From Brevibacillus panacihumi W25 (GTDB lineage: Bacteria > Bacillota > Bacilli > Brevibacillales > Brevibacillaceae), in the NCBI RefSeq assembly GCF_000503775.1, contig NZ_KI629782.1:1934579-1998578 (forward strand): a stretch of 64,000 nucleotides of DNA, given 5' to 3'. The notes below the pieces were generated by a model that was given only the letters and a program-made list of their open reading frames with translations, did no database searches and was not told where the DNA came from. Of this stretch, positions 3,621 through 27,516 are shown piece after piece (position 1 is the first letter of the stretch; every line of letters starts with the position of its first letter). Position numbers and translations under genes: made by a program.

Positions 3621-3695
3621 GTACCCGCTCCTCTCTGGGGCTGTCCCCATTTTCCAATTCTTTGAAGAGCCTTCTGATTCCTGCAAGATTCCATC

Positions 3696-11761: not shown

Positions 11762-12751
11762 TTAGTAGGTAAAGGTCGATATCAACTCTTTCAACTCCTC
11801 TGCCATGTTAGCAAGGGATCTGGCCGATGCGGAGATCTCTTCCATGGAAGCGAGCTGTTCTTCCGTAGATGCCGCTACTTCTTCTGACGTTGCGGCATTT
11901 TCTTTCGCAAAGAGGGCAAGCTGATCCGCTGCGGCTGAAACCTCTTGGACCTCGTCGGACATCTGATGGGCCGTCACTGAAATCGCCTCGATTTGGGGAG
12001 AGATTTCCCTCATGCTCGTTACAATCGTCTGGAATTTCTCGATTGCCTCCTCCGACACGTTGATGCCGTTTTGGACCTCGTCGGTAACCTGTTCCATGAT
12101 TTGTACCGTGTTTTCGGTATCATGTTGAATCCCTTTCAGGATTTCAAAAATTTGCTTCGCCGATGTTTGGGATTGTTCGGCTAGCTTCCCTATTTTAATT
12201 CCCGAATTGGTTTCATGATTGCTTTGGTCACAAAGTAAATGACCACAGCTCCAGCCAGGAGTGCTCCAAGCAAAACAAACAAGGTTGCGTGAAGGATCTT
12301 GGAGGCAGCATCATCTACCTCAGATGAAAACATTACGCCAACAATCTTCCAACCGGTCAATTCATTGGAGGCAAAGGTCATTTCCTTGCTTTCACCATTC
12401 AGTTCATAGGGAAAATGACCAACCTCCACTTGATAGATCAAATCGATGATGCTCTCTGTAGCCTTTGAACCGCTCTCCGCAGTCGGGTGAACAATGTAGT
12501 TCCTGTCTTTATCAAGAAGAGCAGCGTACCCCTTTTTCCCGATTTTGACTTGTTCCGTAAGTTTTTGAATATCACTTATGTATAAATCTGCAGCCACCAC
12601 TCCGGAACCATCCTTTAGTTTCTTGGCGACGGTAAGAATCACTTTTTTCGTAGCCCGATCCACATAAGGGGTGGTAATCACGACATCCCCGTTGCGTTCA
12701 TCCGCGTCTTTATACCAGTTCCGTTGCCGCGGATCAAAATCTATTTTTCTA
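11762..12751 (-). pseudogene. methyl-accepting chemotaxis protein, C-terminal part (disrupted)
   Basis: This is the distal part of a chemoreceptor split by the transposon; the N-terminal part is at 27145-27516. The 12190-12751 piece encodes the rest of a dCACHE sensor (DFDPRQRNWYKDA, VVAADLYISDIQKL) and the second membrane helix ending PIRELK. A stop follows. In another frame the sequence resumes at IGKLAEQSQTSAKQ and runs to the normal receptor C-terminus (AATSEEVAASTEEQLASMEEI). The HAMP domain, the first signalling helix and the tip are missing, so roughly 200 codons were lost at about 12190-12210. The frame is also shifted by one base in an A/T run next to the insertion site. Confidence 0.85.
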
Positions 12752-12788
12752 GGGGTAGTACCAGCGAAGCTGACACCACCCGCAAAGT
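12752..12788 (+). repeat. left terminal inverted repeat of the transposon
   Basis: 37 bases starting with GGGG, identical to the reverse complement of 27108-27144. The preceding five bases TTCTA are the target duplication. Confidence 0.92.
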
Positions 12789-12796
12789 GAATGTAA

Positions 12797-13493
12797 TTAA
12801 ATAGGAAATTTATTGATAACCTCGTTGTACTCTTGTTGGGCATCTGTGATTGCAAGCTTAGAATAGACTTCCAACGACTTGCGGCTTTCGTGGCCGGAGT
12901 ACGGTTGTATGAGCGCGTCATCGATGCCCTGCTTTTTGAGCCAAGTCAACAGGAAATGTCGTAGCTTGTGCGGCGACAGATTTTGCACAAGGCAGGCTTC
13001 CTCCGAATATTTGGCCAGAATCTTTCGTATCCCCCGATCCGTATATTTTTTCTTCCAAGATGATTCGAACAGGTAAACCCCCTGCTTCTTTTTCATCGAA
13101 TCGGCGTGCATAGCCAGCATTTCTTTGAACGATTGAGGGAAGGGGACAATGCGATCTTTGCTGCCTTTGCCTTTGTTAATCCGGATTTGGCAGTAGTGGA
13201 AATCAACATCGGACAACTTGATATTGATCAGCTCGCTTACTCGAACGCCGGTATATAGAAGCGTCTTGACGATCATCATATCTTGAAAGTTCTTCGCTTT
13301 CCAAACCACGTCGTAGTAGCGTTTAAGCTCCTCTTCTGTAGGTACATAAGGAAGCTTCTTTGCTACTTTTGGAACCTCAATCTCCAGTTCCGCTCTAAGA
13401 TGCTGGAACAAGCTTTTGAGATAGGTATAATCTGGCCTTTCTCCACGAAGATATTTGGACAGTTCCTTCGCTTTACGTTTCGGCGATTTCGTC
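12797..13493 (-). CDS. tnpI: TnpI-like tyrosine recombinase (first copy, 5' end probably frameshifted)
   Basis: A site-specific recombinase expected to resolve cointegrates. Catalytic residues are all visible: Arg in [15 protein letters not shown], Lys in [11 protein letters not shown], HxxR in [14 protein letters not shown], His in YSGHESRKS, and the nucleophile Tyr in [10 protein letters not shown]. The coding frame is open from 13493 (reading [20 protein letters not shown]) but has no good start codon. A GTG at 13499, directly after the tnpA stop, reads MRDEIAET and then hits a stop. One missing base near 13485 would join the two, so a frameshift is likely. Translation from TTG at 13411 is the alternative. 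It lies just inside the left end. Confidence 0.75.
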
Positions 13494-13499
13494 TCTCAC

Positions 13500-16124
13500 T
13501 CACGCGATAACACCTTCTTCCAACGGAAGGCGTTCGTTCATGTTCAGTCTGAATGTACCATAAGGGTTTACATGCGTGTATATCAGCGGGGTAAGCGCCC
13601 GTAAGTCTTCCGGAGTCATCATATCGTACCATTTACGGTCGGATAGGACGCTTTGCAACATAATGGTATTAATGTACACCAGACAGTTTTGCAGAAGGTG
13701 AAGTGATAATACGGCCATCTCTTGATCCTCTAACCGGTTGGTGGAAATTTCTCCGTCTTTGCCGTAAAAAATAAAGCTGTTGGCCGAATTCCAGTTTTCC
13801 ACAACATTCAAACCTTCATTGATCTCGCGACGCAGCTCTTCAGAGTGAAGGTAGTCGCACAGGAATATCGTCTTGACCGCTTTGCCGAGTTCCCCCAATG
13901 CTTGATAGGTCGGATGCTTTAGGTTATTAAGGGTAAATCGTTTCAGGATTGCTTCCGTTTCGGCGGTTCCAAGGCGCAGGGCCGTTGCGTACTTCATCAT
14001 TTGATCGTACTGCTGCCGAATCAGTTCCCAATTGATTGGACGGGTCAGTACCGGTTGTAAATTAGGATAGGCATCCGTCATGCCTGGCTCGGGCCTGTAC
14101 AACTTTTGCGAATGAATCGCCTTGAGTCGAGGCATGAGCTGATAACCCAAAAGATAACAAAATGCAAACGCAACCTCGCTCTGGCCGTGCGAGTCCACAT
14201 AATTCTTCTCGACTTTCATTTCGGTACAGTGACGAAGCAATCCTTCCATCATGGCTGCAACTTCGGAGGAGGAGCACGATTTGAGCTGCGAGTAGATGCA
14301 TGTCGAGTTCTTCTCAACGTGCCAATAAATCATAACGCCACGGCCGCGGTAACGAATATGCCATTCCGTCATAAGGTTTTGATCCCATGCGCCAAACTTT
14401 TTCGAATCCGAGGCACAGGATGTCGTGGCATCGCCCCAAATTTCTTGCATCCAAACACGGAAAATCGCGTTCACCACTTCGGATATCGCGTTTCGAAGAT
14501 TGTCCTTATGAATGAATTTCCTCCGGACGTACAACAAATCCTTGTAGCTTTCTCCATGCTCACCGGCACTCACACGTTTTAGGCCGGTGTTCGTTCCGAG
14601 GCCATATAGGGATAGGATAAGTCTTTTTTGCAGCGTATCCCGTCCTAACGCTTCACGAACAGCAACGGTCTTGAATTTTTCCGTAAATCCAACTCGAAGA
14701 TCGGCTTCTTTCAAAATATCCAATAGGCTCGTCATCGGCCAACGCCGAAGCATCTCTGCTTTTATACGTGATAAATTGACCGGTTCTGCTTGTGGTTCTA
14801 ACGGAGACAAGCTGATCCATCCATTCCCTTTCTCCGTGATCCGAACCTTGGGGTTCTTCTGGAGTCCGGTATCGAGTTTTTCCAATCCTTCTTTCATGGC
14901 TTGCTTCAACGTTGCAATGAATGCTTCCGCGTCCAACGGCTGCTTTAGAGCTTTGTAATTTTCTTCTCGCCGATCTTCGAAGTCTGTTGGCAAGTCATCG
15001 TCCGGATTACGGTACCGCTTCGCTCCGACCACCCATATCTCCTTGCAACGAAGCTTTTCCCGTAAAGCTTGCAGGACGCTTATCTCATAATTCATCCGAT
15101 TAATCCGCTCTTGTCCTTTCTCGTCCTTCTCAACAATGATTTCTTTATTAACAGTACGGATCACACCATCTACCGGAATTTCTTCGGACATTGGCAAATA
15201 ATGATGACCAGTATCCGAATATTTCTTGACCAGCTCCAACGCACGAATCACCGGACGATGTACTTCATTGTTTGATCGAAATTCCAGGATGCCTAATATT
15301 TCGGGAACCATACGGCGGTAGTGACTCCCATAGGAAGCCCGAATAATGGTATGAATTTTCTCCCGGTAAGCCGGTCCGGTGTGTTTGATTTCTTTTATCA
15401 AATCCCGTAATGTTTGTTCATTAACAACCGGGAAAATGACATCACGAATTACTCCATCTGGATTATTGATTGCGGACTGCGCCATGTTGAATAAAATTCC
15501 ATACTTATTGCTTACCTTGCGTAAGTCATTCAGAATTTCCTTTTCGACTTTACGTTCTGCTCTTACTCCTATCCGATGGACGATCTGAATAAGCAGCTCG
15601 ATCAAATTGTCCGTTATTTCCATACTTCTTAGCCGGAAGAAGGCGGCCAACAGTGTATAACGGATCGGATCAGGATGCCGGCGAAGTTCCCTGAGATCCT
15701 CTGTTGCGGTCCGCTGTTGGTACTTGGTCAATACTTTAAGAGGGATATCACGAAACAGATCATCCGGAAGTTCCAGATTTCGAATCGTTCGTAGCTTGCT
15801 TACTTCTCTTAACACACTTTCAACACCTGGTTTGCCTGGATCGGACTTCAGCTCTTGAAAAGAAAGAAGTCCCCCGTCGCTGCTTGAACCGCCCTGTTCT
15901 TCATCCAGAAATGCGATGCGCTCTACAAGTGAATCCAATTTAGACAAAGACGACGTGGGCATCTTGCCCAGTGTGGCTTGGAAAAATTGCTCTTCATATG
16001 TACGGATTGCCGCTCTAATAAGTCGCTCGATGCGATCGGGCGTAGGCGGTACAACTTTTATCTCCCGAAATCGCCGGTATACAATCTCAACCAAATGTTC
16101 GAAGTCGTGATCCTGGAATAACAC
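13500..16124 (-). CDS. tnpA: Tn3-family transposase, 5'-truncated
   Basis: An 874-residue open frame. The family is normally near 980-1000 residues. The DDE catalytic region is intact: Asp in [14 protein letters not shown], Asp in [16 protein letters not shown], and Glu in [13 protein letters not shown]. The opening block [19 protein letters not shown] corresponds to about residue 150 of the family. The frame stays open upstream of the GTG at 16124 (reading [14 protein letters not shown]) until the internal transposon end at 16183, so the missing N-terminal DNA-binding part was cut off by that end. There is no ribosome site at 16124. The protein is probably inactive for end recognition. Confidence 0.88.
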
Positions 16125-16182
16125 ATTTTTGCATGGCCAATCGATTACCTCTTCAGCATCTTGGATGGTATCCTCACGAAAG

Positions 16183-16219
16183 GGGGTAGTACCAGCGTAG
16201 CTGTCACCAAGGGCAAAGT
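16183..16219 (+). repeat. internal third transposon end
   Basis: A direct-orientation copy of the left end, with about five mismatches in 37 bases. The homology continues past the repeat into the start of the second tnpI copy. The preceding five bases GAAAG are not found beside the right end at 27144, so the partner end of this unit has been lost. Confidence 0.85.
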
Positions 16220-16228
16220 AGATGTAAA

Positions 16229-16528
16229 TTAAATGGGAAATTTATTGATAACCTCGTTATATTCCTGCTGGGCATCGGTGATTGCAAGCTTCGAATAGAT
16301 TTCCAATGACTTCCGGCTTTCATGACCGGAATACGGCTGTATGAGTGCGTCATCGATGCCCTGTTTATTGAGCCAGGTCAACAGAAAATGACGCAGCTTG
16401 TGTGGCGACAGGTTTTGAGCAAGTTTAGCTTCCTCCAAATATTTGGCCAAAATCTTCCGTATTCCCCGATCCGTGTACATTTTCTTCCACGATGATTCAA
16501 ATAAATAGACCGCATGTTTTTTCTTCAA
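16229..16528 (-). pseudogene. TnpI-like tyrosine recombinase, C-terminal fragment (second copy)
   Basis: About 100 codons matching the last half of the recombinase at 12797-13493 almost residue for residue ([52 protein letters not shown]). It keeps HxxR, His and Tyr but lacks the first catalytic Arg and the Lys region. Homology stops just upstream of 16534, next to the dpaA terminator. It lies directly inside the internal end at 16183, the same arrangement as the first copy beside 12752. Confidence 0.85.
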
Positions 16529-16590
16529 AGTATTCGAGTAAATGACTGAACAATCCTGCCCCGTTTATTCAGTGATGCACGCTGAAACTC

Positions 16591-16619
16591 AAAAAAAACG
16601 ATGGATCGGTTCCATCGTT
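16591..16619 (-). terminator. terminator after dpaA
   Basis: AACGATGGA pairs with TCCATCGTT (16597-16619), with a run of eight T residues on the minus strand (16591-16598). It lies eight bases beyond the dpaA stop codon. Confidence 0.85.
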
Positions 16620-16626
16620 CGCGATC

Positions 16627-17553
16627 TCATAACCCGGAAGGACAAGCAAGTATATCCATTTGCTCTCGATTTTGACTCCGTTCGTCCTGGATCAATTGAC
16701 ATAACGTTCTCGCCAATATACGTCCAGCCGTTCTTGGCGCGACCAATCCCGGTAAACTTGGTGCCAACAAGGCCTTGATTCCACGTTTTTCGGCAAAACG
16801 AAAATCGGTTCCACCTGGTTTGGAAGCCAAATCAATAATAATAGCGTGATGCGGAATACGGGTCAACACACGAGAAGTAAGGATTTGCTCCGGAACCGTG
16901 TTAAAAATAATATCCACATTTACGCCTTCATCGTACAAATCTTTCGTATAAAACGGCTCAATCCCCATCTCCCATGCACGTGCAAACTGCTCCGGTTTCT
17001 GCACCCCCGCTTTGACGTGTGCACCCAGGCGCTGAAGCATTCCGGCTAACGTAAGACCGATTCTCCCCAAACCCAGCACCATACAACGCGAACCATGTAT
17101 GGTAATGTCCGTATGTTGAATGGCCATCAATAAGGCGCCTTCCGCAGTGGGAATGGAATTGTATATGGCAACATCGTCCCTGCTGAATAATTCAATCAGA
17201 TCTATTCCTAGTTCCACGCAAAGGTTCCTCAAGTAAGACTTGGCTATGCCAGTACAGACTTTTGCGTGTTTCGGCAAGGAAGACATATATTCCTTGTTCA
17301 GCAATAACGTTTCAGATGAAAATGAAGACTCTACTCTGCCATGGTCGTCTGTACCGACAACCGGTAATATCAATACATCAGCATTGCGAAGCACCTCCCT
17401 CGTAAGCTTGGAATGCTGAACTTCAAGAAGTTGTTCGTGCAAATCTTCATAACCGATTACCACAACATTTGCATCCAGGTCTGTGAATGACCGAATGATT
17501 TCAAGATGTCGGGCATCGCCTCCAAGGAAAACAATATGCAGACCCGTTAACAA
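16627..17553 (-). CDS. dpaA: dipicolinate synthase subunit A paralogue
   Basis: A 308-residue homologue of DpaA (SpoVFA). In the sporulating mother cell DpaA with DpaB makes dipicolinic acid from dihydrodipicolinate. It has the opening LTGLHIVFLGGDARHLEIIR, the middle block DDVAIYNSIPTAEGALLMAIQHTD, the nucleotide-binding MVLGLGRIGLTLAGML, and the tail DLASKPGGTDFRFAEKRG. Length and motifs are those of the full family. The start is TTG at 17553 with GGGGG upstream. No dpaB, asd or dapA follows, unlike chromosomal spoVF loci: a strong terminator comes next. It lies 36 bases after the DUF1805 gene inside the transposon. Confidence 0.9.
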   Translation of the reverse strand: MLTGLHIVFLGGDARHLEIIRSFTDLDANVVVIGYEDLHEQLLEVQHSKLTREVLRNADVLILPVVGTDDHGRVESSFSSETLLLNKEYMSSLPKHAKVCTGIAKSYLRNLCVELGIDLIELFSRDDVAIYNSIPTAEGALLMAIQHTDITIHGSRCMVLGLGRIGLTLAGMLQRLGAHVKAGVQKPEQFARAWEMGIEPFYTKDLYDEGVNVDIIFNTVPEQILTSRVLTRIPHHAIIIDLASKPGGTDFRFAEKRGIKALLAPSLPGLVAPRTAGRILARTLCQLIQDERSQNREQMDILACPSGL

Positions 17554-17589
17554 AAAATCCCCCTACTTTCCTTAAGTATGGATTTAAAA

Positions 17590-17904
17590 TTAACTAACCT
17601 CGTTTACCATCTTTAAAAGCGCATCTGCTCCTTTCATCCCAGGGCAAATTCCGCGTAATTCCGTCTCTGTGGTCTCCATATCGAGTGGGGCATCCAGCAA
17701 TTGCTCTATTGTTCGTACCCCGGTTGCGCGTCCTGCCACAATGCGGCGATCGTTTAATTTCTCATTTAACAAACGAATATCAAGCGCTCCGCACATGATA
17801 TATCCGTGATCGGTTGTGATGGCCAGAAGTGTTGTTTTGGGCAGGGCGACCTCGATACTTATAACCTGATGACCTTCCACTTCAATCGGTTTCATCATGA
17901 TCAT
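17590..17904 (-). CDS. DUF1805 (YunC-like) protein
   Basis: A 104-residue protein matching the YunC/DUF1805 family: VALPKTTLLAITTDHGYIMCGALDI, then RIVAGRATGVRTIEQLLDAPL, then ETELRGICPGMKGADALLKM. The function of the family is unknown. The ATG at 17904 follows AAGGAG by eleven bases; the nearby ATGs would shift it by two or three codons. It is directly upstream of dpaA in the same direction and probably cotranscribed with it as transposon cargo. Confidence 0.8.
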   Translation of the reverse strand: MIMMKPIEVEGHQVISIEVALPKTTLLAITTDHGYIMCGALDIRLLNEKLNDRRIVAGRATGVRTIEQLLDAPLDMETTETELRGICPGMKGADALLKMVNEVS

Positions 17905-18063
17905 CTATGATGCAGCTCCTTTTTTTCTACACTATATGCCGGGCGTGATATTTGCACCATAGACGGTAGCCCAAATCCGATATTACTTGTCTTCGTTGGA
18001 AGCCTTCTCCCCTTTCGCCAGTGGAAACTGGACTTCGATTCAATTCCATGTAACTTTCGAGAT

Positions 18064-19578
18064 TTATAACAAAGGAGACAACAAACGCGCCGCTTGATCA
18101 AGCATGCGCTCGGAAGAAGTACGATGCATATGATCTTCCAAACGATATGGAGTAGCCTCGGCGAGATCCCGTTCGAATTGTTCCGTAAGCTCCCGGGCCA
18201 CATCAGAATGATACATCACTGCACACACTTCGTAGTTTAAACGGTAACTACGGAGATCGTAGTTGGAAGAACCCACTTCGGCAATCTCGCCATCGATAAT
18301 CATGACTTTGGCGTGCAATACCCCTTTGTTGTACTGAAACACATTGATCCCTGCTTCCACGAGTTCGCCATAATACGTACGGCTTGCAGCTCCTGCAACT
18401 TTAGGAATCACTTGGCGCGGCACCAGTAATCGCACTCGAACGCCACGCGCCGCGGCTGTTTTGATGGCCATCATGATATCCGCATCGGGTATAAAATAAG
18501 GGTTGGTCACGTCGATGGTTCGGGTCGCCTGCGTCAGGCAGATGAAATGCATTTCCCGAATGACCGGAGTAGGCAGCCCGGGATTGCCTTCGAATATCTG
18601 TATATAGACGTTATGCGAATCCTTGGATGGGGAAGCTTTTCCCATGTGGGTGCCTTCCATCGTTCCCAGCTCCGATCCCCATTCCCATCCGTATCCTCGT
18701 TCTGTTTTGCCGGATGGAAATGGATGAATGGCTTTATCGTCAGAAAGTTGAGCGGATTCAGGGAGAAATTTTGCCTTTCTCGTTAAATGGAGCATGTCCG
18801 GTGACGCCATTTTCCAGTGAGCCTCAAAAACGGCTTTCACATCATCCGCTGTTTCGCCGGTTAACCGCATATGAGTGTCGCGCCAAAAATCGACATCCGG
18901 CTTCATTCCGGTATACTCGTCCCCAACGTTGATTCCTCCCATGAAGGCTTCCTTTCCGTCGACGATGACGATCTTGCAATGATCCCGGTATGTCAAGTTG
19001 GATAGTACCCAGGGGAATCGCAAGGGAAAGATGGTCCTGCATTCAATGCCTGCTTCCATCATCCGGCGAACCGCATGTTTGGGAAACGACCGGCTTCCCC
19101 AGCCATCCCTTATAAAACGAATGTTCACACCGGATAAAGCGCGGTCAATCAGCACATCTGTGATACGTTTACCGATATGGTCATTCCGGTATATGTAATA
19201 TTCCAGATCGATTGTCTTTTGTGCGGCCTGAATTGATTGAAGGAGTTTTCCGTAGGTTTCCATCCCGTTCGTGAGGATTTGGACGTAACCGGTTCGAAGG
19301 CCACTGACAGACAAAGGTTGCAAAGCCCGAGCGATAACAAAAGCGGAGTCACCACATGCTGAAGGCAACGCTATCGGGTTATTGTGCGAAGAAACGAGCT
19401 TGTCCCGCCGCATTTGCACAGGATTCGTTACGAACAGGTAACAAACGAATCCGATAATCGGTAATACAAGTCCGACTGATATCCAAGTCAACGCTTTGGC
19501 GGGGCGGCGCACCTCCCGAACCGCAATAATGATCAATAGTGCCGTATTTACTAGCCATAATCCTGCTATCCATGCCAA
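18064..19578 (-). CDS. cls: cardiolipin synthase (phospholipase D family)
   Basis: A 504-residue membrane enzyme joining two phosphatidylglycerols into cardiolipin. Two N-terminal helices (AGLWLVNTALLIIIAV and LTWISVGLVLPIIGFVCYLF) precede two PLD half-sites. The HKD motifs are HCKIVIVDGKEAFMGG and HAKVMIIDGEIAEVGSSNYD. The start is TTG at 19578 with GGGAGG nine bases upstream; the longer frame has no ribosome site. It lies downstream of a DUF1657 gene within the transposon. Cardiolipin synthase and DUF1657 genes are known neighbours on spoVA2mob-type spore-resistance elements, which suggests a role in spore membrane composition (inferred). Confidence 0.88.
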   Translation of the reverse strand: MAWIAGLWLVNTALLIIIAVREVRRPAKALTWISVGLVLPIIGFVCYLFVTNPVQMRRDKLVSSHNNPIALPSACGDSAFVIARALQPLSVSGLRTGYVQILTNGMETYGKLLQSIQAAQKTIDLEYYIYRNDHIGKRITDVLIDRALSGVNIRFIRDGWGSRSFPKHAVRRMMEAGIECRTIFPLRFPWVLSNLTYRDHCKIVIVDGKEAFMGGINVGDEYTGMKPDVDFWRDTHMRLTGETADDVKAVFEAHWKMASPDMLHLTRKAKFLPESAQLSDDKAIHPFPSGKTERGYGWEWGSELGTMEGTHMGKASPSKDSHNVYIQIFEGNPGLPTPVIREMHFICLTQATRTIDVTNPYFIPDADIMMAIKTAAARGVRVRLLVPRQVIPKVAGAASRTYYGELVEAGINVFQYNKGVLHAKVMIIDGEIAEVGSSNYDLRSYRLNYEVCAVMYHSDVARELTEQFERDLAEATPYRLEDHMHRTSSERMLDQAARLLSPLL

Positions 19579-19633
19579 GAAAATCAGCCTCCCAATCCTG
19601 TCGTCTACGAGGGAATAAAGATAAAGGTGGCAG

Positions 19634-19666
19634 CCATGCCGAGAAAAGATCGGCATGGCCTTTTTT
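19634..19666 (+). terminator. plus-strand terminator-shaped hairpin between DUF1657 and cls
   Basis: CCATGCCGA (19634-19642) pairs with TCGGCATGG (19650-19658), and TTTTTT follows on the plus strand only. Both flanking genes run on the minus strand, so this would stop antisense transcription. On the minus strand it is a plain hairpin without a T tail. Confidence 0.5.
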
Positions 19667-19871
19667 AGAACCCTTTATACTGCGGTTCTTCCTGTTCAAT
19701 TTGTTGTATCCGTGGAGTGACCTGGTCAATGATGTTTTGTGTCTGTTGCGCTGCATTTGTGAACGTGGTTTTGGCCTGCTGGTTTTGTGTATTTAACGCA
19801 AACTGTTCAAAGCTGGCCTGTGCGCTTTTTAATGAAGCTACAGCTGTTTTCACTTGAGAAGCTACCGTCAT
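19665..19871 (-). CDS. DUF1657 domain-containing small protein
   Basis: A 68-residue helical protein (TVASQVKTAVASLKSAQASF, then ALNTQNQQAKTTFTNAAQQTQ) matching DUF1657, a family of small proteins common in spore-formers and repeatedly found beside spoVA2mob, cls and YetF-like genes. AGGAGGTGATTCAAC precedes the ATG, an ideal ribosome site. A candidate forespore-type promoter lies upstream (19904-19933). The function is unknown; the spore link is from family context. Confidence 0.85.
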   Translation of the reverse strand: MTVASQVKTAVASLKSAQASFEQFALNTQNQQAKTTFTNAAQQTQNIIDQVTPRIQQIEQEEPQYKGF

Positions 19872-19903
19872 GTTGAATCACCTCCTGAAATGGCATCCAT
19901 ATG

Positions 19904-19933
19904 TAATATGTCAACCCGTCAGAAAAATAATGA
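19904..19933 (-). promoter_or_regulatory. possible sigma-G/F-type promoter for DUF1657 gene
   Basis: On the minus strand CATATTA (19904-19910) resembles the forespore -10 consensus CATAMTA. It is preceded after 17 bases by TCATTA (19928-19933), a partial match to TGMATA. The match is modest and no experimental start is known. Confidence 0.3.
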
Positions 19934-19960
19934 ATGGTAAAATTTGATGATTGGCTATTG

Positions 19961-20534
19961 TCAGGGGTTAGAGTCTTTCTGAAAAGACTTACCGCAATCT
20001 ATGCCCTTCTTGGCAATGCTTGAAGCCAGCAAGTACAGCCCAACATAGATAGGAAAAGAATAGGTATGTTTCCAGTGAACGGGGTGGTATAAATCGGCCA
20101 TTTGTGAAACCGGCTCGGCCACAAAAGCGGAAAATCCCCAAATAGGAGAGCTTTGAACAACGGATGGATGCCAGACTTGTACTGGTGTAAGAACATAACC
20201 GAGACGGGAAGAAGTGAAAAATTCCATGGGAAATTGGCCGGCATGAACGGTATGACTTCCCAGTGATAATGCCAGAGTCCCATGGCAATCCCAAGCTGGT
20301 CCAGCCACGATGACACGATAATCATTGTAAACCCGGATAGGAGAAACTGTCCCGTAGCTCTCTTATCCCGAAATCCGATCCAAATAGCCAGGGGCATATC
20401 GATAAACCTACTCCAAACCACCATTGCCGCGTAAACAGTACGTGAGTGCGCCAAATGTCAGTCATGTTGCGGTGTGCTTCAACAATCAATTGATAGGCTT
20501 GTTCGATTGCATGATGAATCTGATTTTCGTCCAC
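19961..20534 (-). pseudogene. CBO0543-like membrane protein, two frameshifts
   Basis: The product is spread over three frames. The N-terminus starts at GTG 20534 (MDENQIHHAIEQAYQLIVEA, then DIWRTHVLFTRQWWFGVGLS). It continues in a second frame (LLSGFTMIIVSSWLDQLGIAMGLWHYHW, then NFSLLPVSVMFLHQY) and ends in a third (PVSQMADLYHPVHWKHTYSF, then YVGLYLLASSIAKKG). Put together it has the size and membrane pattern of CBO0543-family proteins, which also travel with spore cargo. At least two indels, near 20400 and 20150, break it. A sequencing error at one site cannot be excluded, but two make true decay more likely. Confidence 0.65.
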
Positions 20535-20593
20535 CGATCCACCCCTTTCCGTTATCCGGATACCGATCATTTTTCATCCAATACGTGCCTGTT

Positions 20594-21067
20594 TTATATA
20601 CGCGAGTTTCCATACAGTATATTCGACGTTACAAATACGCCGACCGGCGGCAGCGAAGTTGAAGGCGGTTGCGGTGGGATATAGCCGCTATACCCCGCCA
20701 AGCTTATATCAGTTGTCGCTACCCAGGTTCCATATTCGCCCGCCTGTAAAGAAGAGGGCAGCATCCGCAGACGTCCGGTGAGAACCAAATGCCGAAGTTG
20801 AATCTTGACATCGTCATAGATGGTTAATTGGCCGGAGTAGGCGGCGTAGGGGGAATGAAACATGATCTGCTGCGTGCTTTCATTCCAACTTCCTTCAATC
20901 GGAATCGGCGTTCCGCGAAATTGGATGGTGCCTTGAATTTGCTGGTCCTGCAAAACACGCATTACTAGTTTGCCCCACACAACCGGTCTTCCGGCGACAG
21001 ATGCATGAACTCCCCATATGGAAAAGGGAGGTAAACTCTTTGTACTTGTTTGAGCCGCAACGGACAT
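20594..21067 (-). CDS. hypothetical protein
   Basis: A 157-residue protein starting MSVAAQTSTKSLPPFSIWG. No signal peptide or membrane segment is evident. Alternating hydrophobic and polar stretches (IQGTIQFRGTPIPIEGSW, then IMFHSPYAAYSGQLTIYD, then KIQLRHLVLTGRLRML) suggest a beta-sandwich. The C-terminus holds IPPQPPSTSLPPVG, a proline-rich linker. GAGGAGTGATGAATC before the ATG is a good ribosome site, and TATAAT lies about 30 bases further up on the minus strand. The family was not recognised. It is the first gene of the minus-strand cargo run and could be a spore coat or lumen protein, but nothing in the sequence proves this. Confidence 0.55.
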   Translation of the reverse strand: MSVAAQTSTKSLPPFSIWGVHASVAGRPVVWGKLVMRVLQDQQIQGTIQFRGTPIPIEGSWNESTQQIMFHSPYAAYSGQLTIYDDVKIQLRHLVLTGRLRMLPSSLQAGEYGTWVATTDISLAGYSGYIPPQPPSTSLPPVGVFVTSNILYGNSRI

Positions 21068-21398
21068 GATTCATCACTCCTCAAAGTTAGATCACGTCAT
21101 TATATGCGTCCTCGGAAAAAATGCCAGTCACTGGGCAAGAATTCTTTGCAGATAACCGAACATGATCAAGTAAAAGAAGATGGACATTCTCTTATACTGG
21201 TTGTTTCTTAATGCAGACAGGTTTCGAACAAAATTGTTTCAACCCATCCCAGTTGCCCCAGATGTAATTTTTACATCGATTTGGTTGTCTTGGGGCAGAG
21301 GTAGTCCAGTTTTTAATGCTTGTACTGAATGTTGGTAACATGCAGGCATCCGCCTTTCCAAATTTATGCAAACAGCATTTAAGTTGTCCAGAAACGAA
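21068..21398. other. non-coding stretch between cargo and decayed tnpA
   Basis: About 330 bases with no supported gene. It holds a minus-strand TATAAT near 21100 that may serve the gene ending at 20594. There is also a 62-codon minus frame (21239-21427) without a convincing ribosome site, partly overlapping the tnpA remnant. Nothing else was recognised. Confidence 0.4.
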
Positions 21399-23157
21399 TC
21401 ACTCCCAGTTGTTGCAGAAGTCCTCATATACTTGCTCTACGCCACAGTCGGATAGCATGTGCCTGGCCAAAAAGTCATACCAGAATGCATAGGATGACGT
21501 GGTATTGCCCCAAATCTCTTGCATCCGAACGCGAAAAATCGCGTTCACCACTTCGGATATCGCATTTCGAAGATTGTCCTTGTGAATGAATTTCCTACGA
21601 ACGTACAGCAAGTCTTTGTAACTCTCTCCATGCTCACCGGCACTCACACGTTTCAAGCCGGTATTGTCCCAAGGCCATAAAGTGATAGGATGAGTCGCTT
21701 TTGAAGAATGTCCCGGCCTAACGGTTCGCGTACAGCAATTTTTCTGTAAATCCCACGCGGAGATCGGTCTCTTTGAAAATGTCCAAGAGGCTCGTCATAG
21801 GCCAGCGCCGAAGTATTTCTGATTTTATCGGCGATAGGTTGATCTTGCTCTGATCCAACCGTTACCCTTCTCTGTGATCCTGACATTAGGTTTTTCTGGA
21901 GTCCGGCATCAAGCTTTTCTAATCCATCTTTCATGGCCTGCTTCAATGTTGCAATGAATGCTTCCGATCCAGCGGTTGCTTTAGAGCCTTATAATTTTCT
22001 TCCCGCCGTTCTTCGAAGTCTGTTGGCAGGTCATGATCCGGGTTCCGGTACCGGTTCGCTCCGGCAACCCATATTTTCGTGCAACGAAGCTTTTCCCGTA
22101 AAGCTTGCAGGACGCTTATCTCATAATTCATCCGATTAATTCGCTCTTGGCCTTTCTCGTCCTTCTCTACAATGATTTCTTTATTAACAGTCAGGATTAT
22201 ACCATCTATCGGGATTTCTTCAGACATTGGCAAATAATGATAGCCAGTATCTGAAAATTTCTTTACCAGCTCCAATGCACGAATCACTGGCCGATGCACT
22301 TCATTGTTTGATCGGAATTCCAGGATTCCTAATATTTCGGGAACCATACGGCGGTAGTGACTCCCATAGGAAGCCCGAATAATGGTATTGATTTTCTCCC
22401 GGTAAGCCGGTCCGGTGTGTTTGATTTCTTTTATCAAATCCCGTAATGTTTGCTCATTAACGACCGGGATAATGACATCACGAAGTACTCCTTCTGGATT
22501 ACTGACGGCAGACTGCGCCATGTTGAATAAAATGCCATACTTATTGCTTAGCTTGCGTAAATCATTCAGGATTTCCTTTTCGACTTTGCGTTCTGCCCGC
22601 ACACCTATCCGATGGACGATTTGAATAAGCAGTTCGATCAAATTGTCCGTTATCTCCATACTCCTTAGCCAGAAGAAGGCAGCCATCATCATCCGGAAGT
22701 TCCAGTTTTCGAATCGTTCGCAGCTTGCTTACTTCTCTTAACACACTTTCGACACCTGGTTTGCCCGGATCCGCCTTTAGCTCATGAAAAGAAAGAAGTA
22801 CCTTGTCGCTGCTTGGGCCGTCCTGGTGTTCATCCAGAAATGCAATACGATCTACGAGTGAATCCAATTTGGACAAAGATGCCGTAGGCAACTTTTCCAG
22901 TGTGTCCTGGAAAAATTGTTCCTCAAATGTACGGATTGCGGTTCTGATAAGTCGCTCAATGCGATCAGGCGTAGGCGGTACAACTTTCATCTCCCGGAAT
23001 CGCCAGTAGTATTGAATGACTGCTTTGGGCACTTCGAATTTATGGAAGGGGAATCGCGCAACCGAGTCTCCCCTGACTTATTGCCGATTTGCTGCATTTC
23101 GTTAGGAAGAAACGTAAAATGCTCAATTAACTCTTCCAGTTCCCAATTTCGCTTCAC
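21399..23157 (-). pseudogene. Tn3-family transposase, decayed second copy
   Basis: Starts at GTG 23157 with GGAGAGG upstream (MKRNWELEELIEHFTFLPNE, then GNKSGETRL). This is the family N-terminus that the first copy lacks. A frameshift follows, then a deletion joining EVPKAVIQYY to [15 protein letters not shown], another gap at about 22690, frameshifts near 21950 and 21650, and truncation after RVRMQEIWGN. The DDE catalytic region is absent. Where both copies exist they are clearly paralogous but diverged. It belongs to an older unit of the same family as the end at 16183 and the tnpI fragment at 16229. Confidence 0.88.
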
Positions 23158-23357
23158 TTGATCCTCTCCGAGTAAAGTTCTTAAAATGGTCAGAATCGGA
23201 ATTTTAATCAAAAAATTTAGTATACCGATGCATACTTAATTAGACAATATGGGAGTGATTGCTGTGAAGTTCTATTTAAATTTGGGATAAAGATGATGAA
23301 GATGGGAAAAGTAAAGGTACTGCTTCCATTTAGTGTTTTACAGGGTAAGGTGAGTTG

Positions 23358-24431
23358 ATGCCGAAAATTTCAGTTTTACAGTCATACATGATCATAATAC
23401 TTTCTGTCGGTTTACTGAACCACGTCATCATCATACCGTTACTGCTCGGTGCATCAGGGCGAGATGCCTGGTTTGTAGTACTTCTTGTGTTAATCGCTTC
23501 GCCAATTTGGGTTGGCATTTTAAGCTATATTCTAAATAACATGAACGGAATGCATGTTAGGGATTGGTTAAAGCAACATTTCGGAAGATTTCTCTCGGCA
23601 ACCTTGATTGTCCTATACAGTGTACTTGTATGGTTTATGGGGCTCATTTCCTTTAAGGACACTATAACATGGACAATTGCAACTTATATGCCTCAATCTC
23701 CAATGCTTGTTCTCGCAGGAACAACGCTTGTCGGATGTTTCTTCGCGGCATTTCAAGGGCTTCGCACCATTGCGATTTTAAGCGGGATATTGTTACCTTT
23801 TGTTGTTATTCTAGGTGACCTAGTCATGGCTGCAAACTTTCAGTTTAAAGACTACACCATGCTTTTTCCGTTACTCGAAAATGGGACACCTCCACTTTGG
23901 AAAGGTATTCCCTACGCAGCTGGGGGATTGTTGGAGTTGATGGTGCTGATCTTGTTTCAGCACCAGTTAACAAAGAGGCCGAGCTTCAAAAGCTTAATGC
24001 TTATTTGCATCATATTATCTGGGCTAACACTCGGCCCTTTGATGGGCTCAATTGCCATGTACGGCCCTGATGAAGCGGCACACCAACGATACCCCGCTTA
24101 CGAACAATGGAGAATGGTTCGACTGGGCGAGTATGTGGAGCATGTTGATTTTTTCTCGATTTACCAATGGTTATCCGGTATGTACATTCGAGTTTCGCTT
24201 TCGCTGTTTCTCTTAAGCGAATTGTGGAAATTGCAAAAGTATAAGTGGTTGCCTATGATTCTGGGCGCTTTACTCATGTTTGTTGTTACATTATTGCCAA
24301 TCAGCGATATGCTTTTTCAAGATCTGCTCAGCCGATATTACTTCCCTTCGTTTTGTGTCTTTACCCTTGGGGTCATGCTCGTATACGTCGCGCGAATATT
24401 TATTTCAACATGGGGTAAAAGGAGCAGGTGA
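23358..24431 (+). CDS. gerAB: spore germination protein, GerAB/permease family
   Basis: A 357-residue membrane protein with about ten helices, of the GerAB (APC-superfamily) type that binds germinant in the inner spore membrane. It begins PKISVLQSYMIIILSVGLLN and contains LLLGASGRDAWFVVLLVLIASPIW, typical of the family. The ATG at 23358 follows AAGGTGAG. The stop overlaps the upstream leader of the next gene (GTGA at 24428). The order here is AB-AA-AC rather than the common AA-AB-AC. It points rightwards, opposite to the other cargo, and ends close to the right transposon end. Confidence 0.88.
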   Translation: MPKISVLQSYMIIILSVGLLNHVIIIPLLLGASGRDAWFVVLLVLIASPIWVGILSYILNNMNGMHVRDWLKQHFGRFLSATLIVLYSVLVWFMGLISFKDTITWTIATYMPQSPMLVLAGTTLVGCFFAAFQGLRTIAILSGILLPFVVILGDLVMAANFQFKDYTMLFPLLENGTPPLWKGIPYAAGGLLELMVLILFQHQLTKRPSFKSLMLICIILSGLTLGPLMGSIAMYGPDEAAHQRYPAYEQWRMVRLGEYVEHVDFFSIYQWLSGMYIRVSLSLFLLSELWKLQKYKWLPMILGALLMFVVTLLPISDMLFQDLLSRYYFPSFCVFTLGVMLVYVARIFISTWGKRSR

Positions 24432-24433
24432 AG

Positions 24434-25960
24434 ATGATAAATCTTTTCAAGAATAAATGGATAAGAGAAACAAAATCGTCGACACAACAAGGGGCGCCTG
24501 ATACACAACCGCTTAATGAACAAACACTTCTTCAACGTTTCCAGATGTGTCGTGATGTTAAGCATCATGTTTATAAATTAGTAGCTGGTGACGAACAATC
24601 AAGGATCGTTTTACTGTATTGCGATGGGTTATGTGACAACCAACAACTCATTCAGGATGTGGTGCTTCCTCACTTGACTCGGTTTTACGAAAATCACGGT
24701 TTTCAAAAGAATCAGGAAGTTCTTGAGTCGTGTCAATTACAGCTTGAGAGCATTTCCTTCGAGGAGTGGTGGCAGAAATCCGAAACGGACATTTTTGAGG
24801 GAAAACTGCTTTTGTTTATTCCGACACTAACCGCTTTGTTCTCCCTCGACATATCAAAAAAACCGGCACGCCAGCCCGAAGAATCCAATATCGAAGTCTC
24901 TATTCGCGGGCCGAAAGACGGTTTTGTTGAGGAACTCGGTGTCAATGTTGCGTTAATTCGGAAACGAATCAAGTCAACAAGCATGGTATACGAAACGAAA
25001 ACAGTAGGTGTCCGGACAAAAACAACCATTGCAATTCTCTATATGCAAGACATTGTTGATCCGAAAATCGTCCAAGATATCAAGACTAAATTGGATCGCC
25101 TACACATTGACGGAGCATTCAGCGCCACTCAACTGGAAGAGTTTATGGAACCGACCAAAGCTTTGTTTCCGTTGATGGGCTATACGGGAAGACCAGACTT
25201 TACCGTTAACTGCATGATGAATGGACGTGTAGCGCTGATTGTGGATGGTACACCGGCTGCATTGATCGCACCAGCAAATTTGTACCTGCTCCTGAAAACG
25301 CCAGAGGACATCCACTTTACTGCTTTATCGGCTACGTTTGGACAATCGCTTCGTTTGCTCGGATTGTCCGTATCACTCATGCTGCCCGGTTTTTGGGTTG
25401 CCATTCTTTCGTTTCATCAGGATCAGTTGCCCTATTACCTTCTTGCAACAATTGGCATCAACCGATTAGGCATTCCTCTTGGACTGGCAGAGGAAATGTT
25501 TCTCGCGCTCATCTTTTTGGAAATATTGCGGGAAGCCGGTATTCGGTTGCCTTCAGCGGTAGGATCTACAGTTACGGTAGTGGGAGGGCTCATCTTAGGG
25601 GATGCGGCCATACGCGCAGGATTTTTATCCCCTAGCATTGTTGTCATAGGAGCACTTACGCAAGTGTTCGGTTCGACTTTATCCAACCAGTCACTGGCTG
25701 GGACAATGAGCATTTTGCGCTTCTTCCTGTTCGCTTTGTCTGCCATCTTGGGGATCTATGGCTATTTACTTGCTTTGTTTATCGTGACAACTCATTTAGC
25801 CTCTTTGCGTTCATGCGGTTTGCCTTACCTGGCTCCGATTTCGCCTCTATATGAAGACTTCGCCAATGCCTTGTTCCGATTACCATGGAGATGGCGGAAA
25901 ACTCGGCCAGACATGCTAAATACTCAAGATTCTACAAGCCAAGGGGATAAGCAGAAATGA
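24434..25960 (+). CDS. gerAA: spore germination protein, GerAA family
   Basis: A 508-residue GerA-type receptor subunit. A soluble N-terminal region of about 290 residues has the family landmarks SIRGPKDGFVEELGVNVALIRKRI and PLMGYTGRPDFTVNCMMNGRVALIVDGTP. It is followed by about five membrane helices with PAVGST-like LPSAVGSTVTVVGGLILGDAA. The ATG at 24434 is preceded by GGAGCAGGTG; a GTG at 24428 overlapping the previous stop is possible. It forms a nutrient receptor with the AB and AC subunits and acts in the spore inner membrane. Confidence 0.9.
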   Translation: MINLFKNKWIRETKSSTQQGAPDTQPLNEQTLLQRFQMCRDVKHHVYKLVAGDEQSRIVLLYCDGLCDNQQLIQDVVLPHLTRFYENHGFQKNQEVLESCQLQLESISFEEWWQKSETDIFEGKLLLFIPTLTALFSLDISKKPARQPEESNIEVSIRGPKDGFVEELGVNVALIRKRIKSTSMVYETKTVGVRTKTTIAILYMQDIVDPKIVQDIKTKLDRLHIDGAFSATQLEEFMEPTKALFPLMGYTGRPDFTVNCMMNGRVALIVDGTPAALIAPANLYLLLKTPEDIHFTALSATFGQSLRLLGLSVSLMLPGFWVAILSFHQDQLPYYLLATIGINRLGIPLGLAEEMFLALIFLEILREAGIRLPSAVGSTVTVVGGLILGDAAIRAGFLSPSIVVIGALTQVFGSTLSNQSLAGTMSILRFFLFALSAILGIYGYLLALFIVTTHLASLRSCGLPYLAPISPLYEDFANALFRLPWRWRKTRPDMLNTQDSTSQGDKQK

Positions 25961-27093
25961 ACACATATAAATTTACCGCAGTTCTTCTGCTTCCCTTCCT
26001 TCTCACCGGATGTTGGAGCAAATACGAAGTGCAAAACATGAATTATGCAACGGCTGTTGGAATTGACTATGCGGAAGGTCAATACATCATTTATGCGCAG
26101 TTGCTCGATTTCTCGACAGTGGCAAAACTGGAAGGACAACAGAAAGCGGAACAGCCTCCGGTCTGGATCGGTAGAGGAAAAGGTATCTCATTTTCAGAAG
26201 CAGCGAATGATTTATACAGCACTTCGCAACAAAGGTTAAACTGGGGACAAATCTCTGCAATCTTGTTTAGCGAAAGGTTATTGAAGGAACGAAAAGTCGG
26301 TGAAGTGTTGGAACTGATCGACCGATATCGTGAGATAAGGTACTTAGCTTGGGTGTTCAGTACGCGCGATCCCCTTGACGAGGTCTTAATTGCGACTCCA
26401 TTTTTCAGATTATCGCCAATAGGATCGATTCTACATAACCCCGAACAGAATTATCGGCAGCGTTCTATCCTCGCTCCGATCCGCCTGCAAAAATTTGTAA
26501 TGGATTCAAACGAAAAGGCGAGGACAAGCTATATACCAGAATTATCTGTTCGAAAGGATCAATGGAAGGAAAGTCAAAAACCGCATGAGCTGCTTAGATA
26601 TTCTGGCATACAAATATACGATAAGGACAAATATTACGCACGCATGAGCCTCGAAGAAATAAAAGGATTGCCATGGCTGAATAAACACACAATCCGACTG
26701 CCCGTTGACTTGTTTTCCGATAACAAGCTTGTTGCAGTTCTCGTCGCAGAAAAACCCGAATATGACGTCAAACCAAGGGTTAAATATGACAAAGCATATT
26801 TCGATATTTCCGTTAAGGTGAAGGCCGGAGTAAATGAGCTACATGCAGACGTTACGGAGCAAGAACTCACGCAACTGGCTCAAAAAGAAATTGAGCATCA
26901 AATTAGGCAGACCTTTCAAACCGCGTTTGAAAAGAGAATAGATATTTATAATCTAGGGGAATCTCTTTTTCGCAAGAATCCTTATGAATGGAAACGGATT
27001 GCATCCGGGACTGTGCTAAACAAAGATTCCTTACGAAATATCAATGTTAATGTACAAATCGTGTACTCTGGCAGGTATAAACTTTCACCTTGA
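25957..27093 (+). CDS. gerAC: spore germination lipoprotein, GerAC family
   Basis: A 378-residue lipoprotein: signal peptide MNTYKFTAVLLLPFLLTGCW with the lipobox LTGC. It then has the family opening KYEVQNMNYATAVGIDYAEGQYI and, further on, WVFSTRDPLDEVL. The C-terminal domain (YFDISVKVKAGVNELHADVTE) is as in other GerAC proteins. The start overlaps the AA stop by four bases (ATGA), so the three genes are translationally coupled. The gene ends only 15 bases before the right terminal repeat, with no terminator seen between. Confidence 0.9.
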   Translation: MNTYKFTAVLLLPFLLTGCWSKYEVQNMNYATAVGIDYAEGQYIIYAQLLDFSTVAKLEGQQKAEQPPVWIGRGKGISFSEAANDLYSTSQQRLNWGQISAILFSERLLKERKVGEVLELIDRYREIRYLAWVFSTRDPLDEVLIATPFFRLSPIGSILHNPEQNYRQRSILAPIRLQKFVMDSNEKARTSYIPELSVRKDQWKESQKPHELLRYSGIQIYDKDKYYARMSLEEIKGLPWLNKHTIRLPVDLFSDNKLVAVLVAEKPEYDVKPRVKYDKAYFDISVKVKAGVNELHADVTEQELTQLAQKEIEHQIRQTFQTAFEKRIDIYNLGESLFRKNPYEWKRIASGTVLNKDSLRNINVNVQIVYSGRYKLSP

Positions 27094-27107
27094 TGTTTGA
27101 GTGATTT

Positions 27108-27144
27108 ACTTTGCGGGTGGTGTCAGCTTCGCTGGTACTACCCC
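27108..27144 (-). repeat. right terminal inverted repeat of the transposon
   Basis: Perfect reverse complement of 12752-12788, ending CCCC at 27144 and followed by the duplicated target TTCTA. Confidence 0.92.
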
Positions 27145-27516
27145 TTCTAGCAGATTGGGTTCCTGAATAGTTTCCCCATCTATTGTACCGATATAAACGC
27201 TTACGACTTCAGGGTGCAGCTTCACGTATTGAGTGAAGCTTTTTCTTAGCATGCTTTGATCTTCATTCGATTGCGCCGTAATGGTCTCTGCAAAATAGTT
27301 CATATCATTTATTTTCGGTTGAATAGTCGAATCAATAATTCCATCCAATAGTTTTGTGTTTTCAACCGCAGCATTGATGATTTCATTCTTAATCGAATCC
27401 TTGGCAGAATGATAAGCCAGTATGGCTACAATCAGTGCGGGTATCAACAATAATCCAACAAAAGCAAGAGCTAGCCTGACCTTAAAATTTTGAAAAAATA
27501 TACGCAATGAAACCAC
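27145..27516 (-). pseudogene. methyl-accepting chemotaxis protein, N-terminal part (disrupted)
   Basis: Starts near GTG 27516. It encodes a first membrane helix (FKVRLALAFVGLLLIPALIV) and the first part of a dCACHE sensor (SAKDSIKNEI, then KLHPEVVSVYIGTIDGETIQ), and is cut at EPNLLE by the transposon end. Joined to 12751 and downward, after removal of one TTCTA copy, it would read EPNLLEK-IDFDPRQRNWY, the normal family spacing. The two halves are, however, out of frame by one base in the A run beside the site. Confidence 0.88.

Follow-up and report, generated by a model that had tools for sequence, protein, structure and literature searches.

Spore germination and heat resistance vary by strain, and one reported cause is a Tn1546-type element in Bacillus that carries the spoVA2mob operon. 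In B. subtilis, operon 1 of the Tn1546 element is described as containing an amidase gene, gerKA and ger(X)C, and a cardiolipin synthase gene is carried as well (PMC5133452). Other transposons, including Tn4430, Tn5401 and TnBth4, combine a Tn3-type transposase (TnpA) with a tyrosine recombinase (TnpI) and a resolution-like site made of inverted repeats. In a tree of 190 Tn3 elements, TnpI resolvases are reported in only three members (PMC7157771). A 64,000-nucleotide stretch of the genome of Brevibacillus panacihumi W25 (positions 1,934,579 to 1,998,578 of contig NZ_KI629782.1; hereafter the window) contains an element with likenesses to both kinds. We consider it likely that this element, a Tn3-family transposon of the TnpA-TnpI type with spore genes as passengers, is composite and probably non-autonomous.

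The genome carrying the window (5.5 Mb in 11 contigs) has a close relative in genome G025, taken to be B. panacihumi JCM 15085. A single Tn3-family unit of 14,393 bp spans positions 12752-27144 of the window. Its outer terminal inverted repeats, at 12752-12788 (plus strand, tnpI side) and 27108-27144 (minus strand, ger side), are perfect over the first 37 bp, in agreement with the approximately 38-40 bp of Tn3-family repeats; a repeat search reports 42 bp at 98% for these ends, one base of which belongs to the target duplication. That duplication, TTCTA, borders the unit at 12747-12751 and 27145-27149, and a 5-bp target duplication is typical of the Tn3 family. A 27-base end pattern with up to two mismatches occurs three times in the whole genome, always inside this element, and its reversed control does not occur. 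A third, internal end (IR', 16183-16219, plus strand) has five mismatches and is read as the end of an older element. The inner pair formed by 16183 and 27144 agrees in 0 of 5 flanking bases, the flanks being unrelated, and therefore the unit that jumped here was the whole 14.4 kb. Of 21 flanked inverted-repeat pairs, 13 agree in all five flanking bases; the 21 include three pairs, either inner ones or due to chance, that agree in none. The 14,393-bp unit entered, as a single insertion, a minus-strand gene that by eye resembles a chemotaxis receptor; the N-terminal part of this gene lies at 27150-27516 and the other part at 11762-12746. An earlier reading of the same DNA (the original prediction) had proposed the 14.4-kb unit, its 37-base ends and the TTCTA duplication, all of which are borne out by the repeat search and the flanks; it had missed the third end, the relics of a tnpI and a tnpA inside the unit, and a 157-amino-acid (aa) gene.

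Two observations weigh against so simple an account of the insertion site. The joined flanks are continuous apart from a frame offset of one base close to the junction and a second break near 12100-12190, so that the target gene either decayed further or was already broken before. In addition, the search for empty sites in relatives that the original prediction had proposed yielded none: in collections with about one genome per species, only 2 of 26 genus genomes (the window genome and JCM 15085) gave a match to the right flank, and in both the site is filled. Substitution levels between the two genomes are 0-0.5% within the element and the flank to its right, 0.9% in the flank to its left and 1.7-2.8% at greater distance, which might reflect recombination of the whole region between the lineages rather than vertical inheritance. 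One insertion inherited by both would also fit, and local rate differences are possible; the regional exchange is considered possible but somewhat unlikely.

Both transposition genes lie at the left end of the unit (12797-16182) and do not flank the cargo as had been predicted, and both carry damage that the prediction did not record. In tnpI (12797-13499, minus strand), the first 31 codons are out of frame, which leaves 204 of 235 aa readable, with a match to Phage_integrase (Pfam, E 7e-29). The tnpA gene (13500-16182, minus strand) is truncated at its 5' end, where it meets IR'. Its 874-aa frame, set against the approximately 1000 aa of Tn3-family TnpA proteins, matches DDE_Tnp_Tn3 (Pfam, E 3e-140) and does not match DUF4158; the equivalent of the first 114 of the 1005 residues of an intact relative is lost, and the first usable start corresponds to residue 134. 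The TnpA of this relative is similar to that of Tn4430 (E 1e-79), and its DUF4158 match (residues 21-172) falls mostly within the part lost from the window copy. The ratio of nonsynonymous to synonymous substitution rates (dN/dS) of TnpA is 0.03-0.04. It is highly improbable that the element is an intact, currently self-mobile transposon whose TnpA, though truncated, and TnpI, with 204 aa, have stayed active. The DDE domain and the recombinase catalytic domain are present and the outer ends are perfect, and the junction of IR' with the truncated tnpA recurs unchanged in Paenibacillus PastM-3, P. oralis and P. chibensis, and hence has been carried around. However, the lost segment accounts for most of the DUF4158 match and can be aligned with the N-terminal region of Tn4430 TnpA, and the genome contains one copy of the element. 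The window element is probably non-autonomous and no longer self-mobile.

In other members of the family, two inverted pairs of the AGTTCC...GGAACTT type recur upstream of tnpA (loci L033, L063, L038 and others, with unrelated cargo). When the putative resolution site was scored on these inverted pairs with one strict pattern in 32 upstream regions, the second pair was kept in 24 and the first in 17. The pairs likely constitute a resolution site at the border between the backbone and the passenger slot. The window retains a remnant of this resolution-like site (23175-23274, minus strand), in which the second pair (23175-23201) is kept and the first is broken, with one arm only (23261-23274). 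The family is arranged as site, tnpA, tnpI and end, with the cargo across the site, whereas in Tn4430 the irs is described as lying upstream of colinear tnpI and tnpA (PMC7157771). With the site ahead of tnpA and tnpI behind it, the family shows a variant architecture.

A search of genome contigs with TnpA returned 46 loci. With up to three mismatches allowed, 43 of 394 genomes in one family have the 37-base end (the family of G064, which we infer to be Paenibacillaceae because several of the matches coincide with named Paenibacillus loci). The end is also present in 4 of the 11 genomes in the family of G112, and in 10 of 11 genomes picked because they contained loci. Other family members hold other genes in the ger slot (judged by eye). 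Three of the 46 loci (L026, L027 and L030, all Paenibacillus) contain a compact element of 7,866 bp in the order end, gerAC-gerAA-gerAB, resolution-like site, tnpA (1005 aa), tnpI (235 aa), end. The L027 and L030 copies are bordered by perfect, differing 5-bp duplications (AGAAT and AACTA, respectively), while the L026 contig consists of the element alone and hence has no flanks. Six further ends in the L026 genome, five of which lie some 90 bases from the edge of a contig, fit the presence of several copies there. Over their 7,866 bp the three copies are mutually 99.89-99.99% identical, and a fourth copy (L028) has 3,825 bp that are identical to L026. The own DpaA proteins of the L026, L027 and L030 hosts are 60-66% identical; the DpaA of the L028 host shares 96% identity with that of the L026 host and 60-67% with those of the other hosts. 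Near-identical elements in hosts with diverged DpaA, bordered by differing duplications, argue for recent transfer plus transposition, and by these sequence comparisons the 7,866-bp element has moved recently between distant Paenibacillus species. Compared with this simple transposon, the window copy has the same ends, a tnpA-tnpI pair with 96-97% protein identity and a ger operon with 81-85% identity, but it is composite and larger, with damaged tnpA and tnpI and extra cargo.

Several other contexts were considered and set aside. A candidate mobile form with ger only (L215:6119-10355 in G440; 4,237 bp between two ends) contains the three-gene operon, has no tnpA and matches in one of five flanking bases, hence has no matching duplication. 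A plasmid origin was rejected, as all 49 plasmid matches to GerAA (37 of the records from Priestia; 31-44% identity among the matches listed) and both plasmid matches to dpaA were below 60% identity; ger genes do nevertheless occur on mobile replicons. An integrative and conjugative element context is not claimed for the Paenibacillus copies, where Pfam matches were to DDE transposase, M23/SLT peptidase, resolvase and IS110, with three further frames blank. The P. chibensis, P. oralis and G112 copies (L070, L069 and L216) share a methyltransferase gene and two helix-turn-helix-like frames (by eye), and those of P. chibensis and P. oralis additionally share a low-molecular-weight phosphatase-family gene; the shared neighbours point to one larger island around the transposon.

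The window unit combines parts of two related elements, namely outer ends with the damaged tnpA and tnpI, and an older interior. The interior holds IR', a tnpI relic (16229-16528, minus strand), the cargo block, a frameshifted tnpA relic (21487-23211, minus strand) and the ger operon. IR' and the tnpI relic are 100% identical to those of PastM-3, P. oralis and P. chibensis. Relatedness changes along the ger operon: over the 164 bp that precede the right end, identity is 99-100% with PastM-3, P. chibensis and G112 and 91% with B. invocatus, whereas the remainder of the operon shares 98-100% identity with B. invocatus and 87-91% with PastM-3. This switch, obtained from segment-by-segment comparison and sliding windows, lies at approximately 26970-27050, near the 3' end of gerAC, and indicates at least one recombination among carriers. 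G440 is 93-98% identical in ger and 92% at the end. One comparison speaks against a recombination in the window's own line: G112, compared over part of gerAA, gerAC and the end, is 98-100% identical on both sides of the switch, so that the event may belong to the PastM-3 or B. invocatus line instead. We are very confident of the anatomy and composite nature of the unit and less so of the order of events. An older element carrying ger and a spore-gene island may have inserted into the tnpA of a second ger transposon, after which recombination between the two ger operons would have eliminated one end together with the beginning of that tnpA. A deletion of spoVA genes, now visible at a junction at 21485, most likely also occurred, and the unit would have reached its present site using a transposase supplied in trans.

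The passengers comprise nine genes. Six are on the minus strand: a dpaA-like gene (16627-17553; 308 aa, TTG start, with no dpaB on the element), a DUF1805 gene (17590-17904; Pfam), cls of the cardiolipin synthase family (18064-19656; Pfam PLD and NCBIfam), a DUF1657 gene (19665-19871; Pfam), a broken gene (19961-20570) and a 157-aa gene (20594-21067) of unknown family, matched by none in Pfam or NCBIfam. On the plus strand, gerAB (23355-24431; Spore_permease), gerAA (24428-25960; GerA) and gerAC (25957-27093; Spore_GerAC) provide the A, B and C subunit genes of a GerA-family operon on overlapping intact frames. In NCBIfam, DpaA (TIGR02853) scored 380 bits against a cut-off of 320, and Cls was also above its cut-off. 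The Pfam matches for these genes, with those for the tyrosine recombinase and Tn3 transposase, bear out the predicted gene content, apart from the arrangement and omissions noted above. The broken gene had been called a CBO0543-like pseudogene; it is indeed split over frames, but the name found no support, as its longer open homologues of 182 and 191 aa (L076 and L052) match no Pfam family and the 191-aa protein matches no NCBIfam family.

The spoVA2mob operon (DUF1657, yhcN, spoVAC, spoVAD, spoVAEb, DUF1657 and 2duf) was not found in the element by Pfam, and 2Duf matches in the whole-genome search lie at C5 and C4 only, as the original prediction of an element without spoVA had held. The further claim, that the missing spoVA defines a distinct kind of element, found no support. 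A second copy of the cargo block, at C5 in the same genome, is 96.9% identical over 4.8 kb and adjoins genes for 2Duf (DUF421 plus DUF1657), SpoVAD and SpoVAEb. This island (L076:1780-11750, or G000:C5:467779-477749) contains a cls relic, DUF1657, 2Duf, SpoVAD, SpoVAEb, the 157-aa gene, DUF1657, cls, DUF1805 and dpaA. No family ends were found at the island with up to 11 mismatches allowed, and it was not found in JCM 15085 (G025), where dpaA of the element type occurs once and 2Duf matches do not exceed 55%. In PastM-3, the same block and spoVA order lies between an outer end and IR', the flanks of which do not match, beside the same ger genes, with dpaA interrupted. In G112, the block without dpaA (cut by the contig edge) adjoins 2Duf, SpoVAD and SpoVAEb, and a second SpoVAEb-like gene occupies the spoVAC position. 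The cargo thus stands beside 2Duf, SpoVAD and SpoVAEb at three loci (L076, L052 and L173). Some match to the block at E 0.001 occurs in 234 of 398 genomes of the class; among the matches listed, identity above 90% is seen only in the window genome (two places), G025, G112 and G016, the others being pieces of 65-87%. On a plasmid of P. urinalis (NZ_CP118103.1, 62 kb; L242:12684-14882), 2Duf (98%), DUF1657 and a cls relic are found beside a mercury-resistance operon.

Homology of the window to the C5 copy ends at 21485, beside the start of the tnpA relic at 21487, and a C5 segment of approximately 177 bp is absent from the window just before this point. The same junction (21485-21487) is present in B. 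invocatus, with 99% identity over 304 bp. By these comparisons, the dpaA/DUF1805/cls/DUF1657 block is the end of a spoVA2mob-type island, the spoVA part of which was most likely deleted once in the Brevibacillus form; a gain of spoVA by the other carriers instead would be less simple than one deletion. Between window:18064-19960 and L076:8416-10312, cls is 99.7% identical and a 300-bp DUF1657 stretch is 100% identical, compared with 94.1% for the neighbouring dpaA, which suggests recent gene conversion of cls-DUF1657 inside the window genome.

Homologous cargo is also present on a spoVA2mob transposon of B. velezensis plasmid pDMB05-2 (L243), a Tn3-family element with a 40-bp inverted repeat at 3635-3674 and 16244-16283. 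Its genes match the window cargo (157-aa gene 45%, DUF1657 68% and Cls 56%) and the C5 island (SpoVAD 66%, SpoVAEb 62% and 2Duf 54%), which further counters the notion of a distinct kind. However, its TnpA is 24% identical to that of the window, and it has an annotated recombinase-family resolvase and no TnpI match. The window element, with a tyrosine recombinase, therefore does not belong to the Tn1546 type, which pairs TnpA with a serine resolvase. Unlike Tn1546-like elements, the window copy lacks spoVA and 2Duf and has dpaA, DUF1805 and a three-gene ger operon. As Tn1546 elements already hold ger and cardiolipin synthase genes, ger plus cls cargo is not new; judged by sequence, the kind of cargo is already known and the chassis differs. 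Neither a ger-carrying Tn3 element in Paenibacillaceae nor a dpaA-carrying transposon was found by title or abstract in open-access papers, a search that leaves the subscription literature mostly uncovered.

In all pairs scored, dN/dS was 0.10-0.39 for DpaA, DUF1805 and Cls and 0.10-0.32 for the Ger proteins. For the 157-aa gene it was 0.13-0.28 in five pairs, a sixth pair having no amino-acid change; for 2Duf it was 0.16 in its one pair, and SpoVAD had too few changes to score. Even for the diverged ger copies compared with the 7,866-bp element, with dS of approximately 0.5-0.9, dN/dS stays well under 1. The low ratios indicate that selection has kept the passenger proteins, and the spore cargo is real and under purifying selection, in line with the original view that a Tn3-family element inserted as a unit carries spore genes together. 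The element DpaA forms a single clade with other mobile copies (support 100/100 in a tree of 36 canonical and 5 element rows), apart from the canonical DpaA of the host, with which it shares 58% identity. It keeps 87 of the 93 positions invariant across the 36 canonical rows, and one of the six differences is only the TTG start. DpaA matches at E 1e-90 were found in 39 of 39 genomes of the family searched, 37 with exactly one, the window genome with three and G025 with two. In P. oralis (L238, L239 and L069), there are five DpaA matches, several in broken cls-DUF1805-dpaA repeats on a 518-kb contig, where the block seems to amplify and rearrange.

Several findings weigh against a functional role of the cargo. 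One of the nine passengers is broken. The added genes could be redundant, since the host already possesses a canonical dpaA on C4, next to which lies a dpaB-like frame (by eye), as well as a 2Duf-like gene of its own at 55%. Insertions that contain transposase-like frames (by eye) break up dpaA in PastM-3 and P. oralis C2, so that some carriers can do without this gene. No convincing forespore promoter was found upstream of gerAB, and upstream of DUF1657 there are -10-like motifs only. The conserved CATACTTA upstream of gerAB was rejected as a sporulation promoter, as it falls in the tnpA promoter/resolution-site region. Such findings, together with the damage to tnpA, tnpI and the resolution-like site and the internal tnpA relic, would suit a decayed transposon whose passengers are neutral baggage. 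Eight of the nine passengers are nevertheless open, and the low dN/dS extends to the diverged ger copies, and a dead relic is regarded as unlikely. The same open genes and low ratios could be taken as signs of a selected working set that brought together dipicolinate, membrane and germinant functions in the absence of spoVA and is common to B. panacihumi (at the same site) and, within contig reach (no dpaA in view), B. invocatus. This is more doubtful still, since 2Duf-SpoVAD-SpoVAEb adjoins the block at three other places, the form without spoVA ends at a tnpA relic and its transposition genes are damaged. The preferred reading remains that of a composite transposon with spore genes as passengers, and whether these change germination or resistance today is, in our estimate, an even question.

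From what is known of the families, the passengers may affect the germinant response, the membrane or dipicolinic acid. The ger genes would give the spore an extra germinant receptor and with it a new or altered germinant response, cardiolipin synthase and DUF1657 would tune the spore inner membrane, and the extra DpaA would act on dipicolinate synthesis together with the DpaB of the host.

Homologous spore cargo in Paenibacillus and Brevibacillus rides on a second transposon chassis, distant from the first, and in a minimal transposon a germinant receptor is the only passenger. We give about equal weight to either side of the broader proposal that small autonomous Tn3 ger transposons trade germination specificity among distant Paenibacillaceae and Brevibacillus, and that 2Duf, spoVA and cls were captured at least two times, by TnpI and Tn1546-type chassis. 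If true, spore dormancy evolves partly through transposon swapping, and bacteria may trade the timing of spore germination. This could explain differing germination among close relatives, and the effect of mobile elements on the signals that wake spores is now directly testable.

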